Part shown: positions 28,223-45,641 of the stretch, piece by piece
Numbering within the stretch: the first letter of the stretch is position 1
How the letters are laid out: each line of letters begins with the position of its first letter
DNA from: Erythrobacter sp. BLCC-B19
GTDB lineage: Bacteria; Pseudomonadota; Alphaproteobacteria; Sphingomonadales; Sphingomonadaceae
DNA length: 64,000 nucleotides
NCBI RefSeq assembly: GCF_028621955.1
Contig: NZ_CP117516.1
Location: 1 to 64,000 of the forward strand
Reading direction: 5' to 3'
Position numbers and translations under genes: made by a program
The notes under the pieces: generated by a model
The model's input: the letters and a program-made list of their open reading frames with translations, nothing else
Database searches by the model: none
Told to the model about the DNA's origin: nothing

Positions 28223-28245
28223 GTTATGCCTTGATTACGAGAGAG

Positions 28246-29540: not shown

Positions 29541-29552
29541 TGGCCGACCATT

Positions 29553-30329
29553 TCAGGTATTAACTTTCGTGTCAATCGTAATACTGGGTGCATCCTCGGC
29601 CGGTTCCGGAGCCCGCTTGCGGGTCAGCGCCAGGTCGTAGATCACCCCTGCGCCGTAGCGCTGCGGCGCGTGCGGATCGTGGCGGCGCTTGTCGAGCGTG
29701 AGCACCCGCGTACCGAGCGCGAAGGCCTCCTTGATGTCGTGTGTCACCATGATGATGGTCAGCCCATGCTCGCGCCACAGCCGGGTGATGAGCGCGTGCA
29801 TATCGCCCCTGATGCCGGGATCGAGCGCGCCGAAAGGCTCGTCGAGGAGCAGGATGCGCGGGCGCTTGATCAGGGCCTGGGCGATTGCGAGGCGTTGCTG
29901 CATCCCGCCCGACATCTGTGCCGGGTAGAGGTCGCGGGCATCGGCCAGCCCGACCTGTCCCAGCATCGCCTCGGCCTCGGCGACCGCCGCCCGGCGCGCG
30001 CTGCCGAACAGGCGCGTCGTGAGGGGAGAAGCAGAAAACTCCAATCCCAGCAAGACGTTACCCAGCACAGTTAAATGCGGAAACACCGAATAGCGCTGGA
30101 ACACGACCCCGCGATCTGGCCCGCATTCGCGCGGCAGGGGCGCCCCGTCGAGCGTGATCGTCCCGCGTGTAGGGCGCTCCTGCCCGAGGATCACGCGCAA
30201 GAGGCTGCTCTTGCCCGCCCCCGAAGGCCCGATGATCGAGACGAAGGAACCCTCTGAGATGTCGAGGGAAATGCGTTCGAGGACGACCTTCTCGCCATAT
30301 TCGACCCAGATGTTCCGGAGGCTCAACAT
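29553..30329 (-). CDS. ABC transporter ATP-binding protein (urea carboxylase region)
   Basis: 258 residues. Complete nucleotide-binding domain: Walker A GPSGAGKS, Q-loop VVFQRYSVFPHLT, signature MSGGMQQRL, Walker B ILLLDEPFGALD and switch His in MVTHDIKEA. It belongs to the nitrate/taurine/sulfonate importer class and energises import with the permease encoded 3 bases upstream. Its last codons are unusually AT-rich (SITIDTKVNT) because they overlap an operator-like inverted repeat. Confidence 0.94.
   Translation of the reverse strand: MLSLRNIWVEYGEKVVLERISLDISEGSFVSIIGPSGAGKSSLLRVILGQERPTRGTITLDGAPLPRECGPDRGVVFQRYSVFPHLTVLGNVLLGLEFSASPLTTRLFGSARRAAVAEAEAMLGQVGLADARDLYPAQMSGGMQQRLAIAQALIKRPRILLLDEPFGALDPGIRGDMHALITRLWREHGLTIIMVTHDIKEAFALGTRVLTLDKRRHDPHAPQRYGAGVIYDLALTRKRAPEPAEDAPSITIDTKVNT
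29557..29584. promoter_or_regulatory. Operator-like repeat GTATTA-N16-TAATAC before the NikR-like gene
   Basis: Perfect 6-bp half-sites at 29557-29562 and 29579-29584, spaced 16 bases, the geometry of the E. coli NikR operator (6-N16-6). It ends 17 bases before the regulator start and overlaps the 3' end of the ATPase gene. Read on the minus strand it matches the 32565-32592 site at 21 of 28 positions. Confidence 0.7.
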
Positions 30330-30332
30330 GGC

Positions 30333-31148
30333 TCAGCGCGCTCCGAGATGCGCCCAGCCGAACAACCGGCGGCTGGCAAAAACGAGCGCAAAATCAAGCA
30401 CAACCGCCAGCAGAGCGATCCAGGCGACGTAGGGAATGATCACGTCCATCGCGAGATAGCGGCGCACGAGGAAGATGCGGTAGCCCAGCCCCACATCCGC
30501 CGCGATCGCCTCGGCCGAGATCAGGAACACCCAGGCCGGGCCAAGCGACAATCGCAAGCCCTCCAGCAGCCGCGGCAGCGCTTGCGGCAGCGTGACGCGC
30601 AGCACCACGCCCCATGAATTCGCGCCTAAAGTCAAAGCCTTGACCACCTGCTCTCGCGGCAGCGCGGCGATGTGGCCGGCCACGTCGCGAACCATGAAGG
30701 GCGCCACCCCGACCACGATCAGCGCCACCTTCGCAACCTCGCCAAGGCCGAAGACGATGAACAGGATCGGCAGGACCGCAATCGGCGGGATCACGGCGAT
30801 GGCGGTGACAAGCGGCCCCAAAAACGCGCGAAGCGGCGGCAAAGACCCGACAAGAACGCCCACCAGCAGCGTTGAGGCGGTAGCGATGCCCAGACCCAGA
30901 CCCAGCCGCCCAAGGCTGGCGATGGTATCGGCCCAGAACAGGTATTGGCCCGAAAGCGGATCGGGCTCGAACAGCAGCCCGGCCATCGCTGCGGCCATCG
31001 CGCCGGGGAGCGGCAGGATCTTGTCGGCGGCGTTATCGGCATGGCGCGCAGCCGCCGCGACAATATAGGCCAGCGCCAGCACCAGGAGCGGCAGCGCGCC
31101 CAAGAGCAGCGTAGCCCTGCGGGTCGGCTGTGCCGTGACCCAGCGCAT
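30333..31148 (-). CDS. ABC transporter permease (urea carboxylase region)
   Basis: 271 residues with about six membrane helices and the binding-protein-dependent permease loop (VKALTLGANSWGVVLRVTLPQALPRLLEGLRLSL, an EAA-type motif). Partner of the adjacent ATPase and of the lipoprotein encoded upstream, forming an importer for a small cationic or neutral nitrogen compound, probably guanidine or urea. It is separated from the binding-protein gene by a 271-base structured region. Confidence 0.93.
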   Translation of the reverse strand: MRWVTAQPTRRATLLLGALPLLVLALAYIVAAAARHADNAADKILPLPGAMAAAMAGLLFEPDPLSGQYLFWADTIASLGRLGLGLGIATASTLLVGVLVGSLPPLRAFLGPLVTAIAVIPPIAVLPILFIVFGLGEVAKVALIVVGVAPFMVRDVAGHIAALPREQVVKALTLGANSWGVVLRVTLPQALPRLLEGLRLSLGPAWVFLISAEAIAADVGLGYRIFLVRRYLAMDVIIPYVAWIALLAVVLDFALVFASRRLFGWAHLGAR

Positions 31149-31152
31149 CAGG

Positions 31153-31421
31153 AGAGCCTGCCCGGCCGGGGTGGAAACATTCGCATCGCCTCAGCAAGCC
31201 CGCTGGACAGGAGTGGTGCGCAGCAGGGGCTTGGTTGCCCCTGCAAGGGCCGCGACGCAGCCAGCGGGCTTCCTGAGGCGACCCCGGAGGGGCGGGCCGT
31301 TTTTGGCCCATCGCCGCGTCTCTCGTCGGTCACTATGCAAGAACATGGCTCCCTCCTCGCTCCTTGCGCTGGGCCAAAAACGGCTCCGTGCCAATGCTTC
31401 CACCCCAGCCGGACAGGCTCT
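31153..31421 (-). ncRNA. Large nested inverted-repeat region: candidate structured RNA
   Basis: Fills the whole gap between binding-protein and permease genes. Outer arms 31153-31185 and 31389-31421 (33 bases) pair almost fully; in the mRNA sense three of the four non-Watson-Crick positions are G-U wobbles. Inside are arm 31189-31206 with 31261-31278 (17 of 18), containing a perfect hairpin 31223-31230/31237-31244, and arm 31297-31310 with 31370-31383 (14 of 14). The overall form is a three-way junction. It may buffer transporter expression or be a dispersed repeat; function unknown. Confidence 0.65.
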
Positions 31422-32505
31422 AGAGTTTCCCGTCCGCGGCGAGCTTCATATAGGTGTCGTCAAACCGCAGGGTGATCGCGTTCGCGTCCCCCAGCGTCTT
31501 GCCGCCCGGGAAGCTCATGCCCACCGCGTCCGCCGATTGCGCGCCCTGCCCGAACAGCCCTTGCGCGAAGGAGAAGTCGCGCACGCGGGTCATGGTTGTG
31601 ATGAGGTCGGCCGAAGCCATCGCCGCCACCGCCGCCTTGGGATCGGTGTAGAGGAAGGTCGTCGCCAGCTGCCCCTCGAAGGCCGCGGCATCGGTGCCCG
31701 CGAGCTTGGCCATCGCGGCGCGGGCAGCCGCGCCCTCCGCGTCCTGCTTCGCCATCAGCGCCATGGTTTCATACCAGATCCCGGCGAGCGCCTTGCCCAG
31801 ATTGGGATTGGCGGCCAGCACCTTGGTATCGACCACCATCAGGTCGAGGATCTCGCCCGGAATATCGGCCGAGGTGAACACCGCCTTGGTGCCAGCGACG
31901 CCCTTCATCGTGGTCACCTGCGGGTTCCACGCCACCGCCGCCGTCACATCGGGCGCGGCATAGGCGGCGGAAATATCGGCATCGGAGGTGTTGACCGTCT
32001 TCACATCGGTCAGCTTCAGCCCGTTCTTCTCGAGCGCACGGGCGAGCAGGTAGTGCGACACCGACAGCTCGGCGAGATAGACCTGCCGCCCCTTGATCGC
32101 CGCCACGCTGTCCGCGCCCTTCAGCAGCACCGCATCATTGCCGTTGGAATAGTCGCCAAGGATGATCGCGCTGGTGTCCTTGCCGCCGGCCGCCGGGATG
32201 GTCAGCGCATCCATGTTCGCCACCGTCACCCCGTCAAGCTTGCCTGCGGTGTACTGGTTCACGCTCTCGACATAGTCGTTGACCTGCACGAACTTGATCG
32301 TGATGCCGTATTTGTCGCCCCACTTCTTCACGATCCCGGCCTGCTCGGCATAGGGCCAGGGCATCCATCCGGCATAGATCGACCAGCCGATATTGAACTC
32401 GGTCTTGGGCGCGGCAGGCTCCTCCTCACCCCCCGAACAGGCCGTCACTGCAAGCGCGCAGGCAATGAGCAGAAAACGGGCCGCGCGGCGAAGCAGATGG
32501 AGCAT
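31420..32505 (-). CDS. ABC transporter substrate-binding lipoprotein (urea carboxylase region)
   Basis: 361 residues. Lipoprotein signal with lipobox VTAC (Cys23), then a TauA/SsuA-like periplasmic binding fold beginning EFNIGWSIYAGWMPWPYAEQAGIVKKWGDKYGI, characteristic of the binding proteins found beside urea/guanidine carboxylases. It probably binds the imported nitrogen compound. ATG 32505 follows AAAGGAA; it is the first gene of the minus-strand operon. The stop overlaps one arm of the structured region. Confidence 0.93.
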   Translation of the reverse strand: MLHLLRRAARFLLIACALAVTACSGGEEEPAAPKTEFNIGWSIYAGWMPWPYAEQAGIVKKWGDKYGITIKFVQVNDYVESVNQYTAGKLDGVTVANMDALTIPAAGGKDTSAIILGDYSNGNDAVLLKGADSVAAIKGRQVYLAELSVSHYLLARALEKNGLKLTDVKTVNTSDADISAAYAAPDVTAAVAWNPQVTTMKGVAGTKAVFTSADIPGEILDLMVVDTKVLAANPNLGKALAGIWYETMALMAKQDAEGAAARAAMAKLAGTDAAAFEGQLATTFLYTDPKAAVAAMASADLITTMTRVRDFSFAQGLFGQGAQSADAVGMSFPGGKTLGDANAITLRFDDTYMKLAADGKL

Positions 32506-32564
32506 GATTCGGTTCCTTTCGCAGTCGCAGCATCCGCGCAAATCGCGGGTTTGTCCATGGGGAA

Positions 32565-33767: not shown

Positions 33768-36305
33768 TCAGAACTTGTAACCCAGCTCCACCCCGAAGCG
33801 CTGACGCCCGCCGGGCGAGATGAACGACCCGCCGAATTCGACCGCGGTGATCACCTCGTTCAGATACTTCTCGTTGAACAGGTTTTCGGCATAGGCGGTG
33901 AGCGACCAGTTATCGCCCTCCAGACCGACGCGCAGATCCATCACGGCAAAGGTATCACGCTGCGAGACCGAATAGTCCGCATCGCCCACCACCGCCGGCA
34001 GCGCCAGCGCCGAACCCGGCAGCAGCCCGCTGAACAGGGTCGGGTTGGTATCGTCCTGCAGGGTGTGGAACCACGTCGGCCCTGTGATGCGGTAATCCGC
34101 GCGGGTGACGAAGTTGACGCTGTCGCTCACCGGCAGATCGATCTGGGTGCCGAGGTTGATGGTGTAGTCGGCGGTATAGGGCGACTTGTTGCCGACCGTC
34201 ACCGGGCGCGAGGCGTTTTCGATGATCTCGCTTTCGGTGACGTTGGCCGAGCCGAACAGCGTCCAGCCCTTGACCGGCTCGACCGACAGGTTGAGCTCCG
34301 CGCCGTAAACCTCGACCTCGTCAATGTTCGAGACGACGCGCAGCAGGCCGAAGCCGCCGACGAAGAACTCGAAGAACTGCATATCCTCGATATTGGTGTA
34401 ATAGCCAGCAAGGTCGAAGGTGACGAGGCCATCGCCAAGCGTGCCCTTGATCCCGGCTTCGAAGGCGCTCGAGACTTCCTTGCGGTACTGATCGTCGATG
34501 TCGACATTTGTGCCGATGAACTGGTTGAACGCCTGATCGACAATCGCGGCCGAGCCCTGGTTGTTGAACCCGCCCGATTTGAAGCCGATGCCCCAGTTGC
34601 CGTAGAGGTTGACGTCAGGCGTCAGCTCATAGCGCAGCGAGATCTTGGGCTGGAACTGCTTGAAGCTCGCCGATTGCGGCGCGATCGGCTGGACGTTGCC
34701 GGCCACCACGGTCTGACCCGGGTTGATCGGCCCGCCGGTGATCGGATCGCGCACGGCGGGCACAAGGCTCGCCACATTGCGGTCTTCGATGTCGTAACGG
34801 CCGGCCACGCTGATGTTGAAGCGATCCGACAGGTCGGCATCGACCGCGCCGAACAGCGCATAGACATCGGTGGTGAAGGCATCGTGGTAGAGCTGGGTCG
34901 TCGGGTTGCTGGTGCCCGGCGCGTTGTAGAGCTGACGCAGCACCCCCTGCCCCAGGTCCGCGCCAAGGCTGACGCCGACTTCGCGGTTGATGTGGAGGTA
35001 GTAGGCGCCCAGCTGCCAGTTCACCGGCCCGTCGCCGTTGGAGGCCAGGCGGATTTCGCCGCTGATGTCTTCCTGCTGGCGGATCTGGAACTGGGTGCCG
35101 TCGCAGGTGGTCGGGCTATAGGGGCCGAAGGTCGATCCGGTCGCCGGGTTGAAGATGAACGGGATCGGGCTGGTGCCGATGAAGGTCGGCGCATTGAGCG
35201 GGAAGCCGGCGAGCGCCGTGGTCGACGCCGCGCAGGCATTGGCCGCCGCGACCGAGGCCGGTGTCGCGCCCGGGAAGGTGAAGCGCGCGAAGTCGGCCGA
35301 GGTGCCGTCCGCCGTCAGCGACTGGTCGACATCGCTGTAAAGCAGCCATGCGGTCAGCGAGATCGCATCCCATTCATGCTCGACCTTGGCCGATGCCTCG
35401 AAGGTGGTCTGGTCGTTGGTGGGGCGGATGTTCGAATAGAAGCCGAAGGGATGCTCGTTCACATCCTCGAAGAAGGCCGGATCGACCGCAGCGAAGTTGG
35501 GCAGGTGGAAGGCGGCGTTGAAGTTGATCGAGGCGCCCTTCAGGTCGGCATAGCGGGCCTTCACGTCGATTTCGGTATTGGGGCCGACTTCCATCACTAG
35601 CCGCGCATCGAGGCCGAACACTTCCTGATCGTCGATGGTCTTGGAATTGTTCAGGAACCGGTTGCGGAAGAAGCCGTCGGTGGTCGAGTAATTGGCCGAC
35701 AGCACCAGCCCTGCCGTCTCGCCGATCGGGGTCGAGATGTAAGCATTGCCGAGATAGGTGTTGTCCTGCGCCGCGCGCACCAGCACCCCGCCTTCAAGGC
35801 TGTCGCCGGGCTTCAGGGTCTGGAGCACGATCGCGCCGGCTGCCGCGTTGCGGCCATAGAGCGCGCCTTGCGGGCCCTTCAGGATTTCGACCTGCCGCAG
35901 CGTGCCCTGGTTCTGGTTCAGCTGCGCGGTGTTGGTCTTGAGGATGCCGTCGACCACCAGCGCAACCGAGCTTTCCGCATCGCGCGCGCCGTTGATGCCG
36001 CGAATGTTGATCTGGGTGTCGCCCGCCTCGGCGGTGCCGGTGACGATGGTGACGCCGGGGGTGAGCTGGATGAAGTCATCCGCGCGCTGCACCCCGGTCT
36101 TGGCCAGCGCCTCGGCGGTGAACACCGTGACCGCGGCGGGCACATCGGCCAGCGTTTCCGACTGGCGGCGGGCGGTGACGATGATCGCGCCTTCCTCCTC
36201 CTCGGCCACCGGATCGGCGGATGCGACATCTTGCGCAAGCGCGGGCGAGGACATGGCAATGGCGCCAAGAGCCGCGCCAGAGGCAAGAACCAGACGGATA
36301 TTCAT
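33768..36305 (-). CDS. TonB-dependent receptor (catabolic island)
   Basis: 845 residues. Signal peptide ending SPALAQ, TonB-box-like GAIIVTARRQSETLADVP, a plug domain (INIRGINGARDAESSVALVVDGI; EILKGPQGALYGRNAAAGAI) and a 22-strand barrel ending in YKF. It imports an unknown ligand across the outer membrane. It is the last gene of a minus-strand operon with two SnoaL-like proteins and a racemase-fold protein, so its ligand is probably the compound handled by the neighbouring hydantoinase-like enzymes rather than iron. Confidence 0.92.
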   Translation of the reverse strand: MNIRLVLASGAALGAIAMSSPALAQDVASADPVAEEEEGAIIVTARRQSETLADVPAAVTVFTAEALAKTGVQRADDFIQLTPGVTIVTGTAEAGDTQINIRGINGARDAESSVALVVDGILKTNTAQLNQNQGTLRQVEILKGPQGALYGRNAAAGAIVLQTLKPGDSLEGGVLVRAAQDNTYLGNAYISTPIGETAGLVLSANYSTTDGFFRNRFLNNSKTIDDQEVFGLDARLVMEVGPNTEIDVKARYADLKGASINFNAAFHLPNFAAVDPAFFEDVNEHPFGFYSNIRPTNDQTTFEASAKVEHEWDAISLTAWLLYSDVDQSLTADGTSADFARFTFPGATPASVAAANACAASTTALAGFPLNAPTFIGTSPIPFIFNPATGSTFGPYSPTTCDGTQFQIRQQEDISGEIRLASNGDGPVNWQLGAYYLHINREVGVSLGADLGQGVLRQLYNAPGTSNPTTQLYHDAFTTDVYALFGAVDADLSDRFNISVAGRYDIEDRNVASLVPAVRDPITGGPINPGQTVVAGNVQPIAPQSASFKQFQPKISLRYELTPDVNLYGNWGIGFKSGGFNNQGSAAIVDQAFNQFIGTNVDIDDQYRKEVSSAFEAGIKGTLGDGLVTFDLAGYYTNIEDMQFFEFFVGGFGLLRVVSNIDEVEVYGAELNLSVEPVKGWTLFGSANVTESEIIENASRPVTVGNKSPYTADYTINLGTQIDLPVSDSVNFVTRADYRITGPTWFHTLQDDTNPTLFSGLLPGSALALPAVVGDADYSVSQRDTFAVMDLRVGLEGDNWSLTAYAENLFNEKYLNEVITAVEFGGSFISPGGRQRFGVELGYKF

Positions 36306-36355
36306 AAGGCGGCTCTCCTGTTTGGGATCGAGAGGTGAGAGATGGGAACTGGGGA

Positions 36356-36766
36356 TCAGACGAGCGGGTTGGCCCCGCTCATGTAGACATAGACTTCCTG
36401 GAACTTCGGGCCTTCCGGGCCGGGCCGGAAACGCCAGAAATTGGTGTTGTAGAGCAGCGTGATGCCGCCCTCATGGTCGTGCAGTTCGGCGGTGAAGCAG
36501 GCGGTGATCCGCCCATTGGCCTCGTCCACGGTGCAGGTGAAATCGCGGTGGATGATGGTTTCGTAGGCCGCGAAGAAATCCTCGAACATCCGGCGGATCT
36601 CGGCCTTGCCGCTGTGGCGGGTAAAGGCGGTCTGGACGCAGAACAGCGCGGTATCGTGGAAGCAATCGAGCGCGGCTTCCAGGTCCTTGGCATCGACGCG
36701 GGCGAAGTACTTGTTCAGCGCGAAGTCGACGAGATCGGCGCGCGACAGGGTGGGTTCATACTGCAT
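36356..36766 (-). CDS. SnoaL-like / NTF2-fold protein A
   Basis: 136 residues with the NTF2-like pattern (ALDCFHDTALFCVQTAF...KAEIRRMFEDFFAAYETIIHRDFTCTVDE) and a C-terminal FQEVYVYMSGANPLV shared with its neighbour. Such folds serve as small hydrolases, isomerases or dehydratases; no activity can be assigned. Start overlaps the stop of protein B by one base (TGATG). Confidence 0.85.
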   Translation of the reverse strand: MQYEPTLSRADLVDFALNKYFARVDAKDLEAALDCFHDTALFCVQTAFTRHSGKAEIRRMFEDFFAAYETIIHRDFTCTVDEANGRITACFTAELHDHEGGITLLYNTNFWRFRPGPEGPKFQEVYVYMSGANPLV

Positions 36767-37200
36767 CAGGCCTCGCCCTCCTTCAGCAGGTTGTCACCCG
36801 ACATATAGACATAGACCCGGTGAAACAGCCGGTCCTTGAGGTAGAAGCGGTTGCAGTTTTCATACCGCAGCTCCTCACCCCCGTTGGGCGTGATCAGCAC
36901 GGTGAACTGCGAGCAGACCGCGTTGGTTTGCGGGTCGGCGGTGTGGACGAAATTGCCGTGCCAGATGCTCTCGAAATCGGCGAAGAGCTTGACGAACATC
37001 GCCCGGATCGCCTCGCGGCCCTTGTGGACGGTGTTGCTGGTCACTTCGGTCAGGATCGCATCGGGAGTGAAGCAATCGAGCACCTGATCCATCACCTTGT
37101 TGTCGACCCCGTCGAAGTAACGCTTGGTGACGATATCGACGTAGAAGGGATAGGGCAGCGGCGTCTGGCCGGGGCCGCCCTCAGTCCAGCTTTCGCTCAT
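36766..37200 (-). CDS. SnoaL-like / NTF2-fold protein B
   Basis: 144 residues. Same fold as protein A, with VLDCFTPDAILTEVTSNTVHKGREAIRAMFVKLFADFESIWHGNFVHTAD and the closing HRVYVYMSGDNLL. The shared C-terminus suggests the two paralogues form a heteromer. Start overlaps the racemase-like stop by one base. Confidence 0.85.
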   Translation of the reverse strand: MSESWTEGGPGQTPLPYPFYVDIVTKRYFDGVDNKVMDQVLDCFTPDAILTEVTSNTVHKGREAIRAMFVKLFADFESIWHGNFVHTADPQTNAVCSQFTVLITPNGGEELRYENCNRFYLKDRLFHRVYVYMSGDNLLKEGEA

Positions 37201-37943
37201 CAGTACCAGCCCTTTCGGATGTTGGCGTGCATCGGCACTTCGGGTGCGGGGAAAGCGGTCTTGGAATGGGTCAGACCCAGTTCAATCAGCGTTTCCAATT
37301 GCTTGTAGGCGACCTGTCCGGGGTTCAGCACCGGCACCGGCAGTTCGGATTGGAGGTAGGCGGCGGACTGGTGCATCGTCGTCGAGCCGAGCACGATCAC
37401 ATCCGCGCCGTCCTCCTCGATCGCGCGCATCGCTTCGGCCTTGAGCTTGGCGAAGACGACCTCCTCCTTGCCTTCGAGCAGTTCGGTGACATCGGGGCGG
37501 GTGTCGATCGAGCGCACCGAGGCGCAGCGGTGCTCCCAGCCGTGCTGGTTCAAGACCTTTTCATAGAGCGGGAACCACTGCGGCCACATGGTGATGACGC
37601 TGAACTTCTTGCCGAGCATCATGGCGGCAGCAAAGCTCGCCTCGCCCGGCCCGACCACCGGAATGGCAAGCGCCGAGCGCAGCGGCCACAGACCAGAATC
37701 GCTGACCGTGTCGATCAGCACCCCGGCATAGCCCTCTTCTTCGGCTGTGATCCCGGCCTGGAACACCGTCCAGTCCATCAGCAGGGTATCGTGATAGGAA
37801 TCACCCAGCGCCGCGCCCCAGCGCACGGCCTCGAAGGTTGGCGCGAAGCCGGGACGCACGAAATCGGCCGGAAGCTGCTGGGCGCGGTTGGCCACGCCTG
37901 CTTCATCCATCGCGATCGGCACAATGACCTTGATACGCTTCAC
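37200..37943 (-). CDS. Asp/Glu/hydantoin racemase-fold protein without catalytic cysteines
   Basis: 247 residues, matching the hydantoin racemase fold throughout. The two catalytic cysteines of the family (in IACFxDPGL and VLGCAGM) are replaced by Thr79 (IDTVSDSGL) and Ser187 (VLGSTTM). A normal two-base racemase reaction is therefore unlikely; a decarboxylase, isomerase or binding role is possible. First gene of the minus operon, with the GntR-type operator 34 bases upstream of its start. Confidence 0.88.
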   Translation of the reverse strand: MKRIKVIVPIAMDEAGVANRAQQLPADFVRPGFAPTFEAVRWGAALGDSYHDTLLMDWTVFQAGITAEEEGYAGVLIDTVSDSGLWPLRSALAIPVVGPGEASFAAAMMLGKKFSVITMWPQWFPLYEKVLNQHGWEHRCASVRSIDTRPDVTELLEGKEEVVFAKLKAEAMRAIEEDGADVIVLGSTTMHQSAAYLQSELPVPVLNPGQVAYKQLETLIELGLTHSKTAFPAPEVPMHANIRKGWY

Positions 37944-37976
37944 GGCATTCCCCTGTTGCCAGTGCGTGCGTCGTTA

Positions 37977-37986
37977 TTGTATACAA
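37977..37986. promoter_or_regulatory. GntR-type operator TTGTATACAA (left copy)
   Basis: Perfect 10-bp palindrome inside ATTGTATACAAA, 34 bases upstream of the racemase-fold gene and about 155 bases upstream of the GntR gene. An identical 12-base string recurs before the plus-strand operon. Confidence 0.85.
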
Positions 37987-38000
37987 AACGCCGCCGTCAA

Positions 38001-38029
38001 GCACTTTGCACAAATGCTGTGCTAAGTGC
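38001..38029. promoter_or_regulatory. 29-bp imperfect palindrome before the GntR gene
   Basis: GCACTT (38001-38006) and AAGTGC (38024-38029) enclose GCACA (38008-38012) and TGTGC (38018-38022) around AATGC. Only the single T at 38007/38023 breaks the symmetry. It could be an operator for a second regulator or a hairpin at the 5' end of the regulator transcript. Confidence 0.55.
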
Positions 38030-38141
38030 GGAGGAAGTGTGTTTTTCTCACCGCACAGGCTTGCAGGGCCAAACGGCACGCCGCACAAAGGAACCCCATG
38101 GCCCCTCGCACCTCATCCACCTTCCATCCGGGCCCGCAGCC

Positions 38142-38813
38142 ATGAGTCGCGCCTCCGAACAGGCCTATGCCAAGATCCGCGCCCACCTTCTGAGCGGTGC
38201 GGTCAAGGCCGGCGAGCAGCTGACCGAAGACCAGTTGGCGCAGATCACCGGGGTCAGCCGCACCCCGGTGCGCGAGGCGGTGCGGCGGCTGGAGGACGAG
38301 CTGCTGCTGGTGCGATCCGATACCAAGCGGCTGTTCGTGGCCGACTGGAGCCGGGACGACATCGAAGAGATGTTCACGCTGCGCCAGATGCTCGAATGTC
38401 ACGCCGCCGAACGCGCCGCCGAGCGTCTTTCCCGCGAGCAGATCGCCGCGCTGGACGCGGTCAACCGCGAGCTGACAGCCGCGGTCGATCAGGCGCAGCC
38501 CGATGTGGCGCGGTTCCTCGATGCCAACCGGGCGTTCCATGAAGTGATCATCGACGCCGCCCATTCGCCGCGCCTCGCACAACTTCTGGCGCGGCTGGTC
38601 GAGGCGCCGGTGGTGCTGCGCACGGCGCGCACCTATTCGCGCGATGACCTGCTGCAATCGGCCCGCGACCATGACGAACTGGTCGCCGCCTTCGCCGCGC
38701 GCGACCCCGATTGGGCGCGCGCCGTGATGGGGAGCCACCTGCGCCGGGCGTTCCACTCCTTCGCCCGCGCGGTCGGCCCGGCAGCGAATGACGGACTTGC
38801 AGAAGATGCATAA
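38142..38813 (+). CDS. GntR-family regulator (FadR/FCD type)
   Basis: 223 residues. N-terminal winged helix (AYAKIRAHLLSGAVKAGEQLTEDQLAQITGVSRTPVREAVRRLEDELLL) and a C-terminal all-helical FCD ligand domain with the metal/ligand residues seen in DANRAFHEVIIDAAHS and ARDHDELVAAF. The operator class for this subfamily is a short TTGTATACAA-like palindrome, present on both sides of the gene. ATG 38142 fits the family start; the frame is open far upstream by chance. Confidence 0.92.
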   Translation: MSRASEQAYAKIRAHLLSGAVKAGEQLTEDQLAQITGVSRTPVREAVRRLEDELLLVRSDTKRLFVADWSRDDIEEMFTLRQMLECHAAERAAERLSREQIAALDAVNRELTAAVDQAQPDVARFLDANRAFHEVIIDAAHSPRLAQLLARLVEAPVVLRTARTYSRDDLLQSARDHDELVAAFAARDPDWARAVMGSHLRRAFHSFARAVGPAANDGLAEDA

Positions 38814-38871
38814 CAACGCTGCATGAACCGGCTGGTTCCGACATATTCTGGCGCGCCAAGCATCATTGCAA

Positions 38872-38881
38872 TTGTATACAA
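38872..38881. promoter_or_regulatory. GntR-type operator TTGTATACAA (right copy)
   Basis: Same palindrome as at 37977, within ATTGTATACAAA, 51 bases upstream of the HMG-CoA-lyase-like start and 59 bases after the regulator stop. It places the plus-strand operon in the GntR regulon. Confidence 0.85.
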
Positions 38882-38931
38882 ACCCGGTAATTGACCACCC
38901 ACACCCCCACAGCGGCAACAGGCGATTCACG

Positions 38932-39852
38932 ATGTCAGCCCCCCATTCCCAAGGCGCAATCGAACTGGTGGAGGTCGGCGCGCGTGACGGCTTGCAGAAC
39001 GAGCCCGACATCATCGCGACCGAGACCAAGCTCGATCTCATCAACCGCATGATCGGCTATGGCGCGCGGCGGCTGGAGGTGGCGAGTTTCGTCCATCCCG
39101 CCCGTGTGCCGCAGATGGCCGATGCCGAGGCGGTGATCGCAGGCCTGCCCGACCGCAAGGACTGCACCTATGTCGGCCTCGTGCTCAACAAGCGCGGCGT
39201 GCTGCGCGCACTGGCCACCCGCGAGGGCGGCAAGCGGGGCGTCGATCAGGTCGGCTGCGTGGTCGTCGCGAGCGACACCTTCGGGCAGAAGAATCAGGGC
39301 CAGACGATCGAACAGGGCATCGCCGAGACCCGCGAAATGCTGCGCTTCGCCCGCGCCGAGGGGATCCGCGCACAGGTCACCATCAGCGCCGCCTTCGGCT
39401 GCCCCTTCGAGGGTGCAGTGGCGCATGACACCGTCCTCGCCATCGCGGAGGCCATCGCCGAGGAAAGCCCGGAGGAAATCGCGCTCGCCGACACTATCGG
39501 TGCGGGCACCCCGTGGGAAGCGGGCGAGCTTTTCGCCAAGCTCGGCGAATTGCTCGCAGGCCGGATCCCGATGCGCGCGCACTTCCACAACACCCGCGGC
39601 ACCGGCATCGCCAATGCGTGGGAGGCCTGGAAGGCGGGCGTGCAGGTGTTCGACGCCTCGCTCGGCGGGCTCGGCGGCTGCCCCTTCGCCCCGCGCGCGA
39701 CCGGCAACATCGCAACCGAAGACCTCGTCTACATGATGCAGCGTTCGGGCGTGGCGATGGGCGTTGATCTCGAGGCTGCGATTGCAGCGAACAAGTGGTT
39801 TGCAGGCGTGCTGGGACGGGAACTCCCCTCGGCCGTTGCGCGCGCAGCTTAA
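38932..39852 (+). CDS. Hydroxymethylglutaryl-CoA lyase family protein
   Basis: 306 residues. TIM-barrel lyase of the DRE-metallolyase class: RDGLQNE (residues 18-24), metal-ligand HFHN (His217, His219), and GGLGGCPFAPRATGN with the catalytic Cys250. It cleaves a 3-hydroxy-3-substituted acyl-CoA to acetyl-CoA plus a keto acid; the substrate in this operon is unknown. Signature Gly is Arg here (APRATGN versus APGASGN). ATG 38932 chosen to fit the family N-terminus; only a weak ribosome site. Confidence 0.9.
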   Translation: MSAPHSQGAIELVEVGARDGLQNEPDIIATETKLDLINRMIGYGARRLEVASFVHPARVPQMADAEAVIAGLPDRKDCTYVGLVLNKRGVLRALATREGGKRGVDQVGCVVVASDTFGQKNQGQTIEQGIAETREMLRFARAEGIRAQVTISAAFGCPFEGAVAHDTVLAIAEAIAEESPEEIALADTIGAGTPWEAGELFAKLGELLAGRIPMRAHFHNTRGTGIANAWEAWKAGVQVFDASLGGLGGCPFAPRATGNIATEDLVYMMQRSGVAMGVDLEAAIAANKWFAGVLGRELPSAVARAA

Positions 39853-39867
39853 GTTAGAGGACATAGC

Positions 39868-41925
39868 ATGACGTACAGGCTTGGTGTCGATGTCGGCGGG
39901 ACTTTCACCGACTTGCTTCTGTTCGACGAGGCGAGCGGCGCCTTCTGGCGGCACAAGACCCCCTCGACCCCGCATGATAGCTCGGAAGGCATTCTCAACG
40001 GGGTGAAGGCGATCATGGCGAGTGCCGGGATCGGGGCCGAGGACATCACCTACTTCCTCCACGGCACCACGGTCGCCACCAACGCGGTGCTGGAAGGCAA
40101 GGGTGCGAAGGTTGGCCTCGTCACCACGCAGGGCTACCGCGACATCATGCAGATCGCCCGCAGCTTCGTGCCCGGCGGGCTTGCTGCGTGGATCGTGTGG
40201 CCCAAGCCGCAGCCGCTCGCTAGGCTCGAGCACACGGTCGAGGTGCCCGGCCGCATGGACGCCAAAGGCCGCGAGGTCGCCCCGCTGGATGAAGATGCGG
40301 TGCGCACCGCCTTGCGCAAGCTGAAGGCGGACGGGATCGAGGCGCTCACCGTGTCGCTGATGAACGCCTATCTCAACGGCGCGCACGAAGCGCGGATCGG
40401 CGAAATCGCGGCGGAAGAACTGCCCGGCATCCCCGTTTCGCTCTCCCACGAAGTCCTGCCCGAAATGCAGGAATATGAACGCACCCTCTCGACCGTCGCC
40501 AATGCCGCGGTGCGTCCTGTGGTGTCGAAATATGTCTCCAACCTGCGCACCAAGCTGGAGGCCGAAGGGCTGAAGGGCCGCCTCTCGCTGCTGCGTTCCG
40601 ATGGCGGCCTTATGTCGAGCCAGAAGGCGGAAGAACACCCGGTCAACATCCTCATGTCCGGCCCCGCCGGCGGGGTGACCGGCGCGCTGTGGGTGGCGAA
40701 GAATGCAGGCTTCGAGAACATCCTGACGCTCGATGTCGGCGGCACCTCGACCGACGTCGCGCTGATCCAGGGCTTGGAACCGCGCCGCCAGCGCACAACC
40801 GAAGTCGGGCACCTGTCCGTGCGCGCCTCGGCATTGGACGTGAAGACCGTGGGCGCGGGCGGCGGCTCGATCGCCCACGTTCCCCAGCTGACCGGCGCGC
40901 TGCGCGTCGGGCCGGAGAGCGCGGGCGCAGTGCCGGGGCCGGTCGCCTACAACAAGGGCGGCACGCTCCCCACCGTGACCGACGCCAACGTGGTGCTCGG
41001 CTACCTCCCCGAAGACCTTCTCGGCGGCAGCTTCAAGCTTGATCGCGAGGGCGCGAAGGCCGCGGTGCAGACCATTGCAGACGCGCTCGGCGTGACGCTG
41101 ATGGAGGCCGCGCGCGGGATCATCGACATCGTCAACGAGAATATGTTCGGCGCGCTGCGCATGATCTCGGTGCAGCAGGGCTACGACCCGCGCGAGTTTG
41201 CGCTGATGGGCTTTGGCGGAGCAGGGCCGCTCCATGTGAATGCGGTGGCGCGGTTGATGGGCAGCTGGCCCGCGATCTCGCCCGTCTCCCCCGGCGTGCT
41301 CTGCGCGCTGGGCGATGCGACGACCCGAATGCGCACCGAAACCGCGCGCAGCTTCTCGCGGCTCGCCAAGGACACCACCATCGCCGATCTCGTCGCCGTG
41401 CTTGACGAAATGGCGGCGCAGACCCGCGGCGAACTGCTCGCCGACGGCATCCCGGAAGAGCAGATCACCTCGCTCTTCGAAATCGACGTGCGCTATGCTG
41501 GCCAGGCCTTCGAGGTGCCGCTGACCATCACGCAGGACATTCTCGAAAAGGACGGGATCGAAGGCATCCTCGCCCGCTTCGACGAGGAGCACCTCAGGCT
41601 CTTCACCTTCAACATGGACACCCCGCACGAGATCGTGAACCTGCGCGCGGTCGCCCAAGGGCAAGCCCCTGCCCTGCCCGCGGCCGAGCTGCCCAAGGGC
41701 GATGGCAACCCCGCCGCCGCCAAGATCCGCGACCACGTGATGTGGATCGGCGGCGAGGAGCGGCCGGCGGTGATCTACGACCGCGCCAAGCTCAGGCAGG
41801 GCGATGTGATCCAAGGCCCGGCGATCATCACCGAGATGGATTCGACCACGCTGGTCGAACACGATTGTCGCGCGACTGTCGACGCGGTCGGCAACATCCT
41901 GATTACTCTCAAGGCGGAGGGCTAA
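39868..41925 (+). CDS. Hydantoinase/oxoprolinase subunit A (ATP-dependent)
   Basis: 685 residues. ASKHA-type N-terminus GVDVGGTFTDLLLFD, LHGTTVATNAVLE, SGPAGGVTGA and LDVGGTSTDVAL, all typical of HyuA. With HyuB it forms an ATP-using enzyme; relatives open hydantoin, oxoproline or caprolactam rings or carboxylate acetone and acetophenone. AGAGGA precedes the ATG. The substrate cannot be read from sequence. Confidence 0.93.
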   Translation: MTYRLGVDVGGTFTDLLLFDEASGAFWRHKTPSTPHDSSEGILNGVKAIMASAGIGAEDITYFLHGTTVATNAVLEGKGAKVGLVTTQGYRDIMQIARSFVPGGLAAWIVWPKPQPLARLEHTVEVPGRMDAKGREVAPLDEDAVRTALRKLKADGIEALTVSLMNAYLNGAHEARIGEIAAEELPGIPVSLSHEVLPEMQEYERTLSTVANAAVRPVVSKYVSNLRTKLEAEGLKGRLSLLRSDGGLMSSQKAEEHPVNILMSGPAGGVTGALWVAKNAGFENILTLDVGGTSTDVALIQGLEPRRQRTTEVGHLSVRASALDVKTVGAGGGSIAHVPQLTGALRVGPESAGAVPGPVAYNKGGTLPTVTDANVVLGYLPEDLLGGSFKLDREGAKAAVQTIADALGVTLMEAARGIIDIVNENMFGALRMISVQQGYDPREFALMGFGGAGPLHVNAVARLMGSWPAISPVSPGVLCALGDATTRMRTETARSFSRLAKDTTIADLVAVLDEMAAQTRGELLADGIPEEQITSLFEIDVRYAGQAFEVPLTITQDILEKDGIEGILARFDEEHLRLFTFNMDTPHEIVNLRAVAQGQAPALPAAELPKGDGNPAAAKIRDHVMWIGGEERPAVIYDRAKLRQGDVIQGPAIITEMDSTTLVEHDCRATVDAVGNILITLKAEG

Positions 41926-41929
41926 GACC

Positions 41930-43819
41930 ATGCCGGCTCGCATCATCGAACCCAACACCACCCCCTTTGCCAAGGTCGCGATCGACCCGGTGACGCTCGA
42001 CATCATCGAGAACGCGCTGCGCAATGCACGCATCGAGATGGACGCGACCCTCGTGCGCACCGCCATGTCGCCGGGCATCCGCGAACAGGGCGACGCCTTT
42101 CCGCTGATCTCCGATCCGGCCGGCAAGATGATCGTCGGCCAGTTCGGCAGCTTTATCGACGGTTTCCTCAAGCAGTATGATGGCACGATCGAGGACGGGG
42201 ACATGATCTTCCTGTCCGATCCCTATTCCTGCGGCGGGGCGGTCAGCCACTCGAACGACTGGCTGGTGCTGCTGCCGGTGTTCAAGGATGGTCGCCTGCT
42301 CGCCTATACCGCGATGTTCGGCCACCAGAGCGACATCGGCGGATCGGTCCCGGGCTCAATGCCGATCGGCGCGTCCTCGATCTTCGAGGAGGGCGTGCGC
42401 ATCCCGCCCGTCAAGATCTGGAAGAAGGGCGAATACAACGAAGACCTGATGAAGCTGGTGATGCACCAGACGCGCAAGCCCGACTGGTGCCAGGCGGACC
42501 TCAACGCGCTGATCGCCAGCTGCCGCGTCGCCGCGCGCCGCGTGATCGAAATGGCCGACCGGTTCGGTGATGATGTCTATGTCTCGGCCACGCAGGAGCT
42601 TCTGGCCCGCAACCACCGGGCGATGAAGGCGCTGCTGGCGATGGCGGTGGCCGAGGAGCCGGTGAGCTTCGAGGACTACATCTGCGACGACGGCAAGGGC
42701 TACGGCCCCTACAAGATCCGCTGCACCATGTGGCGCGAGGGCGACAAGGTGATCCTCGATTTCGAGGGCACCGATCCGCAATCGGCCGCCTCGATCAACT
42801 TCTTCCTCAATGAAAACATGTTCAAGATGTTCTTCGGCATCTACATGATCATGGTCTTCGATCCGCAGATCCTGTTCAACGACGGGTTCTACGATCTGAT
42901 CGAGGTGCGCATCCCGGAAGGCTCGCTGCTGAAGCCGCACTTCCCCGCCGCGCTTTCGGGCCGCACCCATGCGCTGGGCCGCATCTTCGACATTCTCGGC
43001 GGGCTGCTCGGGCAGAAGACGCCGGAGTTCCTCAACGCTGCCGGCTTCTCCTCCTCGCCGCACCTGTTCTATTCGGGCTGGGACGCGCGCGAGGACGGGA
43101 CGCGCGACTGGTTCCAGCTGTTCCAGATCGGTTTCGGCGGCATTCCGGGCAGGCCGCTCGGCGACGGGCCGGACGGCCACTCGCTGTGGCCGGGCTTCAC
43201 CAATGTCCCCAACGAGTTCCTCGAACGTTACTTCCCGCTGCGGATCGAGCGCTATTCCACCGCGCCCGACAGCGGCGGCGCGGGCCTCCATCGCGGGGGC
43301 AACGGCATCCACATGACCTACCGCTTCCTCGCCGATGGCGAGATCGCGATCCATGACGACCGCTGGTTCGTGCCGCCGTGGGGCGTCAACGGCGGCCACC
43401 CCGGCGCGCGGGCGAGGAAGGTGCTCGAGCGCGCCGATGGCTCGCAGGAAATCGTCGGCAACAAGGTCGAGAGCGTCAAGGTGAAGGCGGGCGACCTCCT
43501 CCACTTCATCACCTGGGGCGGCGGCGGCTGGGGCGACCCGCTGGCGCGCGATCCCGAGCTGGTCGGCCTCGAAATCCGGCAAGGCCTCGTCACCCCCGAG
43601 GGCGCGCGCGCCTATGGCGTGGTGGTGGACAGCGCGGGTGTGGTCGATACGGCCGCAACCGAGGCTCTGCGCGCTGAAATGTCGGCCAGCCGCGGCGAAC
43701 TCCCGCTGTTCGACTATGGCCCGGGTATCGACGCCCTTCGCGCCAACTGCGAGGCTGAAACCGGCCTCCCCGCCCCTGTCCAGCCGGTGTGGACCACCTT
43801 GCGGGAGGCGGCGGAATGA
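41930..43819 (+). CDS. Hydantoinase/oxoprolinase subunit B
   Basis: 629 residues. HyuB features: DPVTLDIIENALRNARIEMDATLVRTAMSPGIREQGDAF, DPYSCGGAVSHSNDW, and GGWGDPLARDPELV near the C-terminus. Lies 4 bases after HyuA, so the two are made together. The last codons overlap the CoA-transferase start (ATGA). Confidence 0.93.
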   Translation: MPARIIEPNTTPFAKVAIDPVTLDIIENALRNARIEMDATLVRTAMSPGIREQGDAFPLISDPAGKMIVGQFGSFIDGFLKQYDGTIEDGDMIFLSDPYSCGGAVSHSNDWLVLLPVFKDGRLLAYTAMFGHQSDIGGSVPGSMPIGASSIFEEGVRIPPVKIWKKGEYNEDLMKLVMHQTRKPDWCQADLNALIASCRVAARRVIEMADRFGDDVYVSATQELLARNHRAMKALLAMAVAEEPVSFEDYICDDGKGYGPYKIRCTMWREGDKVILDFEGTDPQSAASINFFLNENMFKMFFGIYMIMVFDPQILFNDGFYDLIEVRIPEGSLLKPHFPAALSGRTHALGRIFDILGGLLGQKTPEFLNAAGFSSSPHLFYSGWDAREDGTRDWFQLFQIGFGGIPGRPLGDGPDGHSLWPGFTNVPNEFLERYFPLRIERYSTAPDSGGAGLHRGGNGIHMTYRFLADGEIAIHDDRWFVPPWGVNGGHPGARARKVLERADGSQEIVGNKVESVKVKAGDLLHFITWGGGGWGDPLARDPELVGLEIRQGLVTPEGARAYGVVVDSAGVVDTAATEALRAEMSASRGELPLFDYGPGIDALRANCEAETGLPAPVQPVWTTLREAAE

Positions 43820-45000
43820 GCGGCGCGCTTCAAGGGATCAAGGTCGTCGAAATGGGCCAGTTGCTGGCGGGCCCGTTCTGCGGCCAGCTGCTCGGCGACA
43901 TGGGCGCGGATGTGGTCAAGATCGAGCCGCCGGGCGCGGGCGATCCGATGCGCAACTGGGGTCAGGGCGACGAGAAGGTGCAATGGGAAGTGATCGCGCG
44001 CAACAAGCGCTCGGTCACCTGCAACCTGCGCGTGCCCGAAGGTCAGGCGCTCGCCAAGCGGCTGATTGCCGAGGCCGATGTGCTGATCGAAAACTTCAAG
44101 CCCGGCACGCTCGAACGCTGGGGCATGAGCCCGGCGGAGCTTCACGCGGTGAACCCCGGCCTGATCATCGCCCGGATGTCGGGCTACGGACAGGATGGGC
44201 CTTACTCCGAACGCGCCGGCTTTGGCGGGATCGGCGAGGCGATGGGCGGGTGGCGCTACATCGTCGGCGAGCCTGACCGTCCGCCGAGCCGCATGGGCAT
44301 TTCCATCGGCGATACCCTATGCGCGACCTATGGCTGCATGGGCGTGCTCGCCGCGCTCCACCACCGGGAAAAGACCGGCGAGGGGCAGGTGGTCGATTCC
44401 GCGCTCTATGAAGCGGTGTTGCAGGTGATGGAGGGCTTGGTGCCCGAATATGACCGCAACGGCGTGATCCGTGAACGCTCGGGCTCGGTGCTCAAGGGCA
44501 TCGCGCCGTCGAATGTCTACACCTGCAAGGACGGGGTCTACATGATCGGCGGCAATGGCGATGCGATCTTCACCCGGCTGTGCCAGGCGATGGGTCGCCC
44601 CGAACTGTCGAGCGACGAGCGCTATTCAACCCACATTGCCCGCGGCATTCATCAGGACGAACTGGACGCCCTCATCAACGCGTGGACGGGCACGCTGACC
44701 GTCGACGAGGTCGATGCGCTGATGACCGAGTATTCGATCCCCGCAGGCCGGGTCTATCGGGCGCCCGAGATGCTCGCCGATCCGCATTTTCAGGCGCGCG
44801 AGGCGATCATCGAGGTCGAGACCCAGAACCGGGGTAAGATCAAGATGCAGAACGCCTTCCCCAAGCTCTCCAAGACCCCCAGCACCATCCGCCGCCCCGC
44901 GCCCGCCGCACCGGGCCAGGACAATGCCGAGGTTTTTGCGGAACGGCTCGGCCTTGACGCGGCTGAGTTGGAGCGGTTGGCGGCGGCGGGCATCATCTGA
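43816..45000 (+). CDS. Type III CoA-transferase (CaiB/BaiF family)
   Basis: 394 residues. Family motifs VVEMGQLLAGPFCGQLLGDMGADVVKIEPPG and the catalytic Asp166 (GISIGDTLCATYG), with NVYTCKDGVYMIGGNGDAIF in the C-terminal half. It moves CoA between acids through an aspartyl-CoA intermediate. In this operon it probably activates the acid produced by HyuAB for the lyase. ATG 43816 overlaps HyuB by 4 bases. Confidence 0.92.
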   Translation: MSGALQGIKVVEMGQLLAGPFCGQLLGDMGADVVKIEPPGAGDPMRNWGQGDEKVQWEVIARNKRSVTCNLRVPEGQALAKRLIAEADVLIENFKPGTLERWGMSPAELHAVNPGLIIARMSGYGQDGPYSERAGFGGIGEAMGGWRYIVGEPDRPPSRMGISIGDTLCATYGCMGVLAALHHREKTGEGQVVDSALYEAVLQVMEGLVPEYDRNGVIRERSGSVLKGIAPSNVYTCKDGVYMIGGNGDAIFTRLCQAMGRPELSSDERYSTHIARGIHQDELDALINAWTGTLTVDEVDALMTEYSIPAGRVYRAPEMLADPHFQAREAIIEVETQNRGKIKMQNAFPKLSKTPSTIRRPAPAAPGQDNAEVFAERLGLDAAELERLAAAGII

Positions 45001-45641
45001 TGACCAGCCCCTCGGCGTCCGACAATTATGCGGGGGTCTATGAAGGGCGGCTCCAGCCCGGCAACCGCCCTGCCCTGCTGATTGTCGATGTCGTGGCGGC
45101 CTATCTGACCGAAGGGTCGGCGCTGTTCATGGAAACCGCAGCCGCGGCGCGCGATTGCAACGCCCGGCTGGCAGAGGCAGCGCGGGCGGCGGGCGTGCCG
45201 GTGGTCTTCACCAATGTCCAGTACAAGCCCGATGGCTCGGACGGCGGGGTGTTCTACAAGAAGGCGCCGGTCTTGAAGGCCTTCATCGAAGGCTCGCCGC
45301 TGGGTGCTTTCCCGCCGGAACTGACCCCGCTGACAGGCGAACGGGTGTTCACCAAGCAATACCCCAGCGCCTTCTTCGGCACCGGGCTTGCCGAAGTGCT
45401 GCACGCGGCAAGCATCGATACGCTGCTGATCACCGGCTATTCGACCTCGGGCTGCGTGCGCGCCTCGGCGCTCGATGCGATGCAATATGGCTTCGTGCCG
45501 CTGGTCGTGCGCGACGCCTGCGCCGACCGCCACCCGGCCCCGCACGAGGCGAACCTGTTCGACCTCCAGGCCAAATATGCCGAAGTCATCAGCGAGGCCG
45601 AGGCGCTGGCGGTTATCGCCGCCGCGGCGGCCCGCGCCTGA
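45000..45641 (+). CDS. Isochorismatase-like cysteine hydrolase
   Basis: 213 residues. Catalytic triad Asp30 (LLIVDVV), Lys119 (FTKQYPSAF) and Cys152 (STSGCVRASALDA). Close in style to N-carbamoylsarcosine amidohydrolases, which release ammonia and CO2 from carbamoylated amino acids, as would be made by a hydantoinase. Starts at the stop of the CoA-transferase (TGATG). It ends one base from a convergent gene. Confidence 0.9.
   Translation: MTSPSASDNYAGVYEGRLQPGNRPALLIVDVVAAYLTEGSALFMETAAAARDCNARLAEAARAAGVPVVFTNVQYKPDGSDGGVFYKKAPVLKAFIEGSPLGAFPPELTPLTGERVFTKQYPSAFFGTGLAEVLHAASIDTLLITGYSTSGCVRASALDAMQYGFVPLVVRDACADRHPAPHEANLFDLQAKYAEVISEAEALAVIAAAAARA

Follow-up and report, generated by a model that had tools for sequence, protein, structure and literature searches.

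What does a bacterium gain from placing a TonB-dependent receptor, a HyuAB-type enzyme pair, a coenzyme A (CoA) transferase, a lyase of the 3-hydroxy-3-methylglutaryl-CoA (HMG-CoA) type and an amide hydrolase around a single GntR regulator gene? The question is raised by ten genes at positions 33768-45641 of the first 64,000 nucleotides of contig NZ_CP117516.1 of Erythrobacter sp. BLCC-B19 (hereafter, the window). An earlier annotation of the same DNA (the original prediction) had sketched import, ring opening or carboxylation, CoA activation and lyase cleavage. This outline largely held up, with the recurrence of the genes and their conserved motifs in its favour, but carboxylation is now less likely and the racemase assignment is weakened; the present analysis adds an imide reading, a link to the isopropylmalate dehydratase LeuCD, a HyuA clade that crosses domains and the finding that the racemase cysteines are missing. 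Our preferred reading, in which we place slightly less than even confidence, is that the cluster forms one regulon in which HyuAB would open a five-membered imide-type ring, with amide hydrolysis, CoA loading and cleavage by the HMG-CoA-lyase-family enzyme (HMGL) to follow.

Two identical operators and a recurrent gene set

The layout is that of two divergent operons around one GntR gene, as originally predicted. The minus-strand operon runs Rac, SnoaL b, SnoaL a and TonB receptor, and the plus strand carries GntR, HMGL, HyuA, HyuB, CaiB and isochorismatase; from HMGL onward, plus-strand neighbours nearly abut or overlap (HyuB and CaiB by 4 bases, CaiB and isochorismatase by 1 base). All ten reading frames are open where they had been placed, and profile matches in Pfam and NCBIfam confirmed every family; the "amidohydrolase" of the earlier heading is the isochorismatase-fold protein, none of the ten proteins matching the amidohydrolase superfamily in Pfam.

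The two operators, at 37976-37987 between the minus-strand operon and GntR and at 38871-38882 upstream of HMGL, are identical over 12 bases (ATTGTATACAAA), and the 10-base palindromic core, TTGTATACAA, precedes both the minus-strand operon and HMGL. With up to one mismatch allowed, this core matches twice in the window against 0.04 expected, a number reached by none of 100 shuffles. The 3,607,050-base genome holds exactly two exact sites, both at the cluster (the backward control has one), and the genome-wide search, made for exact and not for mismatched sites, returned no third member of the regulon. Among 80 related Sphingomonadales loci (L016-L095, the best 80 of at least 518 related stretches; 1,542,099 bases), the palindrome occurs 102 times in 70 loci, whereas each of the 19 alternative palindromes that its half-site letters can form has one site at most. 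Every one of the 102 is found no more than 400 bases from a matched start (Rac, 22; HMGL, 35; GntR, 34; TonB receptor, 11), and none falls within any of the ten gene families. This arrangement is far above chance and looks like one dedicated local regulon. The GntR/FCD family regulator (38142-38813, plus strand; 223 residues; Pfam GntR 59.5 and FCD 93.5 bits) is the probable operator-binding protein, judging from its position and its presence in 60 of the 61 loci described below, which accords with the GntR-controlled catabolic unit of the original prediction.

Gene content was counted in the 61 of these 80 loci that have at least 7 kb before and at least 4.5 kb after HyuA, the other 19 being left out. 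HyuA, HyuB, HMGL, CaiB and a TonB receptor occur together in all 61, and isochorismatase is present in 45. Twenty-two loci hold all ten genes, and Rac and both SnoaL genes were found in no other of the 61. Beyond the ten, no gene family is seen in more than 14 of 81 sequences (the 80 loci plus the window). The core is a TonB receptor, GntR, HMGL, HyuAB and CaiB, usually with isochorismatase, and Rac with the two SnoaL genes is an optional module. At the level of genomes, HyuA orthologues with 81-98% whole-length identity are present in 28 of 36 congeners, and two further congeners have HyuA in two pieces (one) or as an 82-residue fragment (one), which brings the count to 30 of 36; of the 24 further genomes from the order, 13 have a HyuA at 58-66% identity. 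Erythrobacter type strains with the cluster include E. colymbi (L016) and E. ramosus (L026). The original prediction had made such recurrence its own test, and the gene set does recur, here and in relatives elsewhere.

In many of the 80 loci, HMGL is about 50-58% identical to that of the window where HyuA is 81-87% identical, and it is not always in the same place (in L043 and L044 it follows CaiB), which would suit an exchange of the lyase gene. Such uneven identity, the optional nature of Rac and the SnoaL pair, and an isochorismatase not found in 16 of 61 loci would suit a set of separate scavenging enzymes that share one regulator and form no single pathway. We hold this to be highly improbable: the core genes overlap or abut, recur in 61 of 61 loci, and recur in other phyla in other orders.

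HyuAB and the enzymes encoded beside it

HyuA, the ATP-binding subunit (39868-41925, plus strand; 685 residues; Hydantoinase_A 295.9 bits), carries DVGGTFTD at 8, DVGGT at 289 and GAVPGP at 353, that is, all three ATP motifs (DxGGTxTD, DxGGT and GxxPGP) defined for the ATP-dependent lactamase/hydantoinase family in PMC8453981. In HyuB, the metal-site subunit (41930-43819, plus strand; 629 residues; Hydantoinase_B 491.7 bits), residues D55, H107, D110 and H132 align by manual count to D41, H99, D102 and H124 of 6yra_B, given in that paper as the metal ligands of caprolactamase. The best PDB match of each subunit is an N-methylhydantoinase, the scores of HyuA being 478 bits for N-methylhydantoinase, 402 for 6yra, 316 for acetophenone carboxylase and 242 for acetone carboxylase. 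Membership of HyuAB in the ATP-dependent lactamase/hydantoinase family, of the ring-opening type, is supported, and ATP-driven hydrolysis of a cyclic amide is the predicted reaction. Both subunits stay far under every NCBIfam equivalog cut-off matched: for caprolactamase, HyuA reaches 540 and HyuB 224 bits where each subunit would need 1000, and for acetophenone carboxylase, HyuA reaches 326 and 182 and HyuB 124 bits against cut-offs of 1250-1500. The caprolactamase CapAB of Pseudomonas jessenii is thus similar in its ATP motifs and metal tetrad, but different in its partner genes and by the equivalog scores.

Ring opening and carboxylation had both been offered for this pair. Acetone and acetophenone carboxylases have subunits homologous to HyuA and HyuB, and one could picture HyuAB carboxylating a ketone with ATP and bicarbonate, CaiB making the CoA ester and HMGL splitting it. 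We think this very improbable, since the highest scores of HyuA and HyuB are with hydrolases; moreover, the cluster holds no partners fitting a carboxylase, and the resulting beta-keto acid would call for a thiolase, not for HMGL, LeuCD or an amide hydrolase. Ring opening, which the ATP and metal motifs favour, is the part of the claim that stood.

The isochorismatase-fold amide hydrolase (45000-45641, plus strand; 213 residues; Isochorismatase 137.3 bits) has D30, K119 and C152, none of which varies among the 17 homologues selected for alignment; Asp, Lys and Cys form the catalytic triad of isochorismatase-fold amide hydrolases. Its PDB matches tie between 3ot4 and 26st, with E-values of 4.8e-38 for 3ot4/3uao (the latter presumably the maleamate amidohydrolase NicF) and 5.8e-38 for N-carbamoylsarcosine amidohydrolase, and it falls below the NCBIfam equivalogs for biuret hydrolase (62 bits, cut-off 370) and RutB (48 bits, cut-off 378). 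In half-amide and carbamoyl substrates alike, the distance between carboxylate and terminal amide is the one that opening of a five-membered ring would leave. The original prediction had cited the release of ammonia from carbamoyl groups by isochorismatase-like hydrolases; because N-carbamoylsarcosine amidohydrolase and 3ot4/3uao rank equally, the enzyme may cut a half-amide instead.

HMGL (38932-39852, plus strand; 306 residues) scores 283 bits with the subfamily model NF004283 (cut-off 246) and contains RDGLQ, HFHNTRG, GGCPFA and GNIAT, the catalytic motifs of HMG-CoA lyases; its substrate may be a hydroxy-acyl-CoA other than HMG-CoA. CaiB is a type III CoA-transferase (43816-45000, plus strand; 394 residues; CoA_transf_3 423.6 bits) that reaches the cut-off of neither of its nearest named models, succinate-glutarate (274 bits, cut-off 750) and succinyl-CoA:mesaconate CoA-transferase (239 bits, cut-off 700). 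An ending in a CoA-transferase and an HMG-CoA lyase, as predicted, is borne out, and in relatives it is tied to isopropylmalate-dehydratase genes. None of the ten genes passes the NCBIfam cut-off of a characterised equivalog, HMGL passing only that of its subfamily, and no described pathway with this gene set was found in the open-licence literature on the gene set or on imide or tetrapyrrole catabolism. This is weak evidence of absence; it agrees with the earlier statement that no pathway with the exact set was known. The auxin (iad/iac) pathway was considered and rejected, the available parts of two papers on it describing no HyuAB/HMGL set.

The minus-strand operon encodes the TonB-dependent receptor (33768-36305; 845 residues; Pfam Plug and TonB_dep_Rec barrel), SnoaL-like proteins a (36356-36766; 136 residues; Pfam SnoaL_2 32.8 bits, cut-off 27) and b (36766-37200; 144 residues; SnoaL_2 41 bits), and Rac (37200-37943; 247 residues). 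Rac has the Asp/Glu/hydantoin-racemase fold and the corresponding Pfam match, as the original prediction had it. Hydantoin and allantoin racemases depend on two catalytic cysteines, however, and both are present in the comparison structure 3qvj; in Rac, T and S stand in their places and the only cysteine is residue 140, so that alpha-proton exchange by the known mechanism would not be expected.

A HyuA clade and its partner genes

In 398 genomes of the phylum, searched at E of 1e-150 or better with two candidates scored in each, HyuA was found in 14, the source genome included; nine lie outside the family and contribute ten loci at 54-57% identity (L189-L198). LeuC and LeuD are present in 7 of these 10 loci, and isochorismatase, HMGL and CaiB in 8 of 10 each, in varying orders. 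Their transporters differ as well: three loci have a TonB receptor, L189 and, by sequence look, L190 have an ABC system, and L192 by sequence look has a TRAP transporter. Plasmids of Acidiphilium and Geobacillus carry five genes of the set, each time beside LeuCD. Rubrobacter has GntR, CaiB, HyuAB and isochorismatase; of two haloarchaeal plasmids, each with HyuAB and isochorismatase, one adds CaiB and a LeuA-like gene and the other an isocitrate-lyase/phosphoenolpyruvate-mutase-like gene. Over the 18 loci outside the order (L202, a member of the order, is not among them), a LeuCD-type hydratase (LeuC) is found in 9 and isochorismatase in 14. In L196, the one relative scanned, LeuC (718 against 560 bits) and LeuD (222 against 116 bits) are above the isopropylmalate dehydratase cut-offs. 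A PrpR_N sensor domain is present in all five regulators scanned, beside the cluster in L194-L197 and near it in Geobacillus (L128); a gene of L193 encodes an acetyl-CoA hydrolase/transferase, not PrpR.

In a quick, midpoint-rooted HyuA tree of 71 hand-chosen rows (7 of the 80 loci included; L184-L188 and L001-L015 left out), 46 rows form one clade with a Shimodaira-Hasegawa-like approximate likelihood ratio (SH-aLRT) support of 100 and a branch of 1.23; several outside rows are long and unsure in their placement. The clade contains the window, the Proteobacteria relatives, Geobacillus, Rubrobacter and haloarchaea. Partner genes were counted within 9.5 kb, with reference proteins at E 1e-10 and 50 bits, in 45 in-clade and 25 outside loci. 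Isochorismatase is found in 34 of 45 in-clade loci versus 1 of 25 outside, CaiB in 35 versus 1, HMGL or LeuA in 32 versus 0, LeuC and LeuD in 11 versus 0 each, and GntR in 25 versus 2. The contrast for isochorismatase, CaiB, HMGL/LeuA and LeuC/LeuD is plain, in loci that are kin by descent, with tests that are not independent and references taken partly from in-clade loci, so that the p-values are overstated. No clear contrast is seen for the TonB receptor (23 versus 16), HyuB (45 versus 24), Rac (12 versus 4), an FAD oxidoreductase (5 versus 1) or PuuE-like genes (3 versus 0). Repeating the count at 1e-4 and 40 bits changed a single figure, the TonB receptor outside rising from 16 to 17. Isocitrate-lyase-like and PrpD-like genes were rejected as clade markers (3 of 45 each versus 1 of 25); they point to alkyl-malate/citrate chemistry too, but are too few to count, and the examples of this type in L131 and L140 are outside the clade or without HyuAB.

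These partners bear on the class of ring. Were the substrate a 5-substituted hydantoin, HyuAB would open it, the isochorismatase-fold enzyme would remove the carbamoyl group, and CaiB and HMGL would degrade the nitrogen-free acid. This would fit the N-methylhydantoinase as best PDB match of HyuA and HyuB and the tie with N-carbamoylsarcosine amidohydrolase, a name that one annotated relative bears. The creatinine pathway employs a HyuAB-type N-methylhydantoinase and N-carbamoylsarcosine amidohydrolase, and shares with the cluster an ATP-dependent ring opening of HyuAB type followed by isochorismatase-fold hydrolysis. To our knowledge it has no CaiB, HMGL or hydratase step, whereas CaiB and HMGL are present here and HyuA and HyuB are far under the equivalog cut-offs. 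Conversion of N-methylhydantoin through N-carbamoylsarcosine to sarcosine is described in the abstract of PMC4417704. The product of a hydantoin route would be an amino acid, yet there is no aminotransferase or amino-acid oxidase among the ten genes; the LeuCD partners of the clade suit hydroxy-diacids, and Rac is without the racemase cysteines. We therefore regard a hydantoin as unlikely, and favour an imide because the LeuCD and PrpR_N partners belong to alkyl-malate/alkyl-citrate chemistry and not to that of amino acids.

A second cluster, the proposed pathway and neighbouring genes

The same genome has a second cluster at about 176-188 kb (L215), with genes for two PuuE-like polysaccharide-deacetylase proteins, isochorismatase, LeuC, LeuD, HMGL and CaiB, an alpha/beta hydrolase, a methyltransferase and, by sequence look, alcohol and aldehyde dehydrogenases. 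Its LeuC is 60% identical to the Acidiphilium LeuC, and the one of the two PuuE-like proteins that was compared matches PuuE allantoinase structures. With PuuE-like proteins next to the shared downstream genes, a like downstream module therefore follows another presumed ring opener. In Aspergillus nidulans, according to PMC9304392, a cyclic imide is opened by HxnM, a protein that the authors connect with PuuE and with a bacterial cyclic imide hydrolase, and an amide hydrolase then yields a hydroxy-diacid. That nicotinate route (HxnM, HxnN), from imide through half-amide to hydroxy-diacid and ammonia, resembles the one proposed here, except that HyuAB would be the opener and the diacid would go on to CoA cleavage. 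The second cluster, with its PuuE/cyclic-imidase-like proteins, isochorismatase, LeuCD, HMGL and CaiB, thus supports an imide pathway. LeuC of the second-cluster kind, scored at E 1e-145 or better in 60 relatives, is found in 13 of them, 8 among the 36 congeners and 5 among the other 24; each of these 13 also has the HyuA clade.

Several findings weigh against an imide pathway. The family scores are unable to separate imide, hydantoin and lactam substrates. Neither LeuC nor LeuD adjoins the cluster in the window; in the genome, LeuC matches are confined to about 180 kb and 315 kb, apart from an aconitase-like match at 1.7 Mb. Of the 43 HyuA-clade relatives, 30 gave no LeuC of the second-cluster kind, although two of these 30 (G055 and G060) show a different LeuCD in the stretch seen (L173 and L180). 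Sphingomonas JE1 and Sphingobium TomTYG65 have HyuAB with other partners, HMGL, CaiB and isochorismatase being absent from the stretches seen. The Sphingomonadales loci without isochorismatase, the failed isocitrate-lyase and PrpD markers, which lowered our confidence slightly, and the kinship of the counted loci belong on the same side. Because most HyuA-clade relatives are without second-cluster-kind LeuC, either hydration is not needed, the substrate being already hydroxylated, or it is done by the biosynthetic LeuCD or another enzyme.

From the genes, operators, recurrence, partner counts and catalytic motifs described above, we infer a pathway in which DNA binding by GntR, each reaction, the order of steps and the class of substrate are predictions. 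The GntR protein would bind TTGTATACAA at its two places and so control the uptake, through the TonB receptor, and the degradation of a single class of nitrogen-containing ring compound. With ATP, HyuAB would open a five-membered ring with a nitrogen between two carbonyls, perhaps an alkyl-maleimide or alkyl-succinimide, and the isochorismatase-fold enzyme would hydrolyse the half-amide and free ammonia. The diacid, if unsaturated, might be hydrated (by LeuCD in relatives) to an alkylmalate-like hydroxy-diacid; CaiB would transfer CoA to it, and HMGL would split the ester, giving an acyl-CoA together with a 2-oxo or 3-oxo acid. The SnoaL pair and the cysteine-less Rac may form an optional module for a variant substrate. 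These downstream steps would resemble leucine biosynthesis in reverse. The cluster is akin to leucine biosynthesis and citramalate/alkylmalate metabolism in that LeuCD, LeuA or HMGL relatives accompany the HyuA clade, but the proposed direction is breakdown, starting from a nitrogenous ring. Such chemistry would combine familiar kinds of enzyme in a new way.

A hydroxy-lactam route, as in anaerobic indoleacetate breakdown, would use the same enzymes differently: HyuAB would open a 3-hydroxy-lactam-3-acetate, CaiB would load the acetate arm, HMGL would release acetyl-CoA and a 2-oxo acid, and isochorismatase would serve another step. The chemistry would be neat for HMGL, and in the IaaCE pathway of Aromatoleum a CaiB-type transferase accompanies HyuAB. 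The caprolactamase paper (PMC8453981) names Aromatoleum IaaCE as a HyuB homologue. Opening the lactam would, on the other hand, free an amine and leave no role for the isochorismatase that marks the clade, and the authors of PMC12633357 read the aerobic iad auxin pathway as an acyl-CoA synthase and thiolase route. We find a hydroxy-lactam quite doubtful as the substrate.

Within the imide pathway, the source of the ring can be narrowed further by conjecture. Alkylated maleimide-type rings might be turned into alkylmalates by HyuAB and isochorismatase, and then processed by LeuCD, CaiB and HMGL or LeuA, so that Erythrobacter and its relatives would live on maleimides derived from tetrapyrroles; we rate this version very unlikely. 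Maleimides of chlorophyll, heme or bilins, such as hematinic acid and methylvinylmaleimide, would then yield pyruvate together with CoA esters of glutaryl or crotonyl type. Tetrapyrroles are a guess as the source, made on ecological grounds and from the chemistry of the products, not from sequence.

HyuA and HyuB genes are often called "5-oxoprolinase" by default, and many such names are wrong according to the caprolactamase authors (PMC8453981). Here, one HyuA clade is defined by its partners across two domains, and is given a specific operator and an order of reactions that can be put to the test. With 30 of 36 congeners holding HyuA, the cluster points to a nutrient source of a common aquatic group that is not named in the literature searched. 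If the imide reading is true, an ATP-dependent branch would be added to cyclic imide breakdown and linked to leucine-type carbon chemistry.

Beside the cluster, the minus strand at 22243-32541 of the window encodes five proteins that pass their cut-offs, namely urea carboxylase (1755 bits), allophanate hydrolase, UAAP1, UAAP2 and the substrate-binding protein of an ABC system, annotated for urea, as well as a NikR-like regulator that stays below its own; ABC genes from this urea unit adjoin the cluster in 10-11 of 81 sequences (the 80 loci and the window). Outside the window, contig 1 holds a catabolic island at about 152-188 kb (L215 and L216), in which the part upstream of the second cluster has two CaiB genes and TonB receptors (BLAST), along with CitE-like, MaoC-like, acyl-CoA dehydrogenase and PrpD-like genes recognised by sequence look.

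Some further genes were seen near clusters in relatives. Near those of L126, L142, L147, L193, L202, L215 and L073 lies a gene for a methyltransferase, some 390 residues long, whose N-terminal half is unnamed; five of these proteins were compared and are 36-53% identical, with further matches in L073 and L202. Proteins of the arylmalonate-decarboxylase family are encoded near the HyuA clade in L190 (1792-2499) and L193 (2809-3555), with no Rac seen there. A Rhizobium/Tistrella-type cluster (L138, L139, L140 and L131) combines two Rac homologues with an isocitrate-lyase-like protein, an FAD oxidoreductase, ABC transporters and either LeuCD or PrpD; in the stretches seen, only L131 of these four also has HyuAB and isochorismatase, its HyuA being outside the clade. 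Finally, a DUF1329, DUF1302, MMPL and YCF48-like set lies between HyuA and HMGL in L194 (10867-17196) and, by sequence look, in L197 (10863-17201), hinting at a hydrophobic substrate in these two loci.

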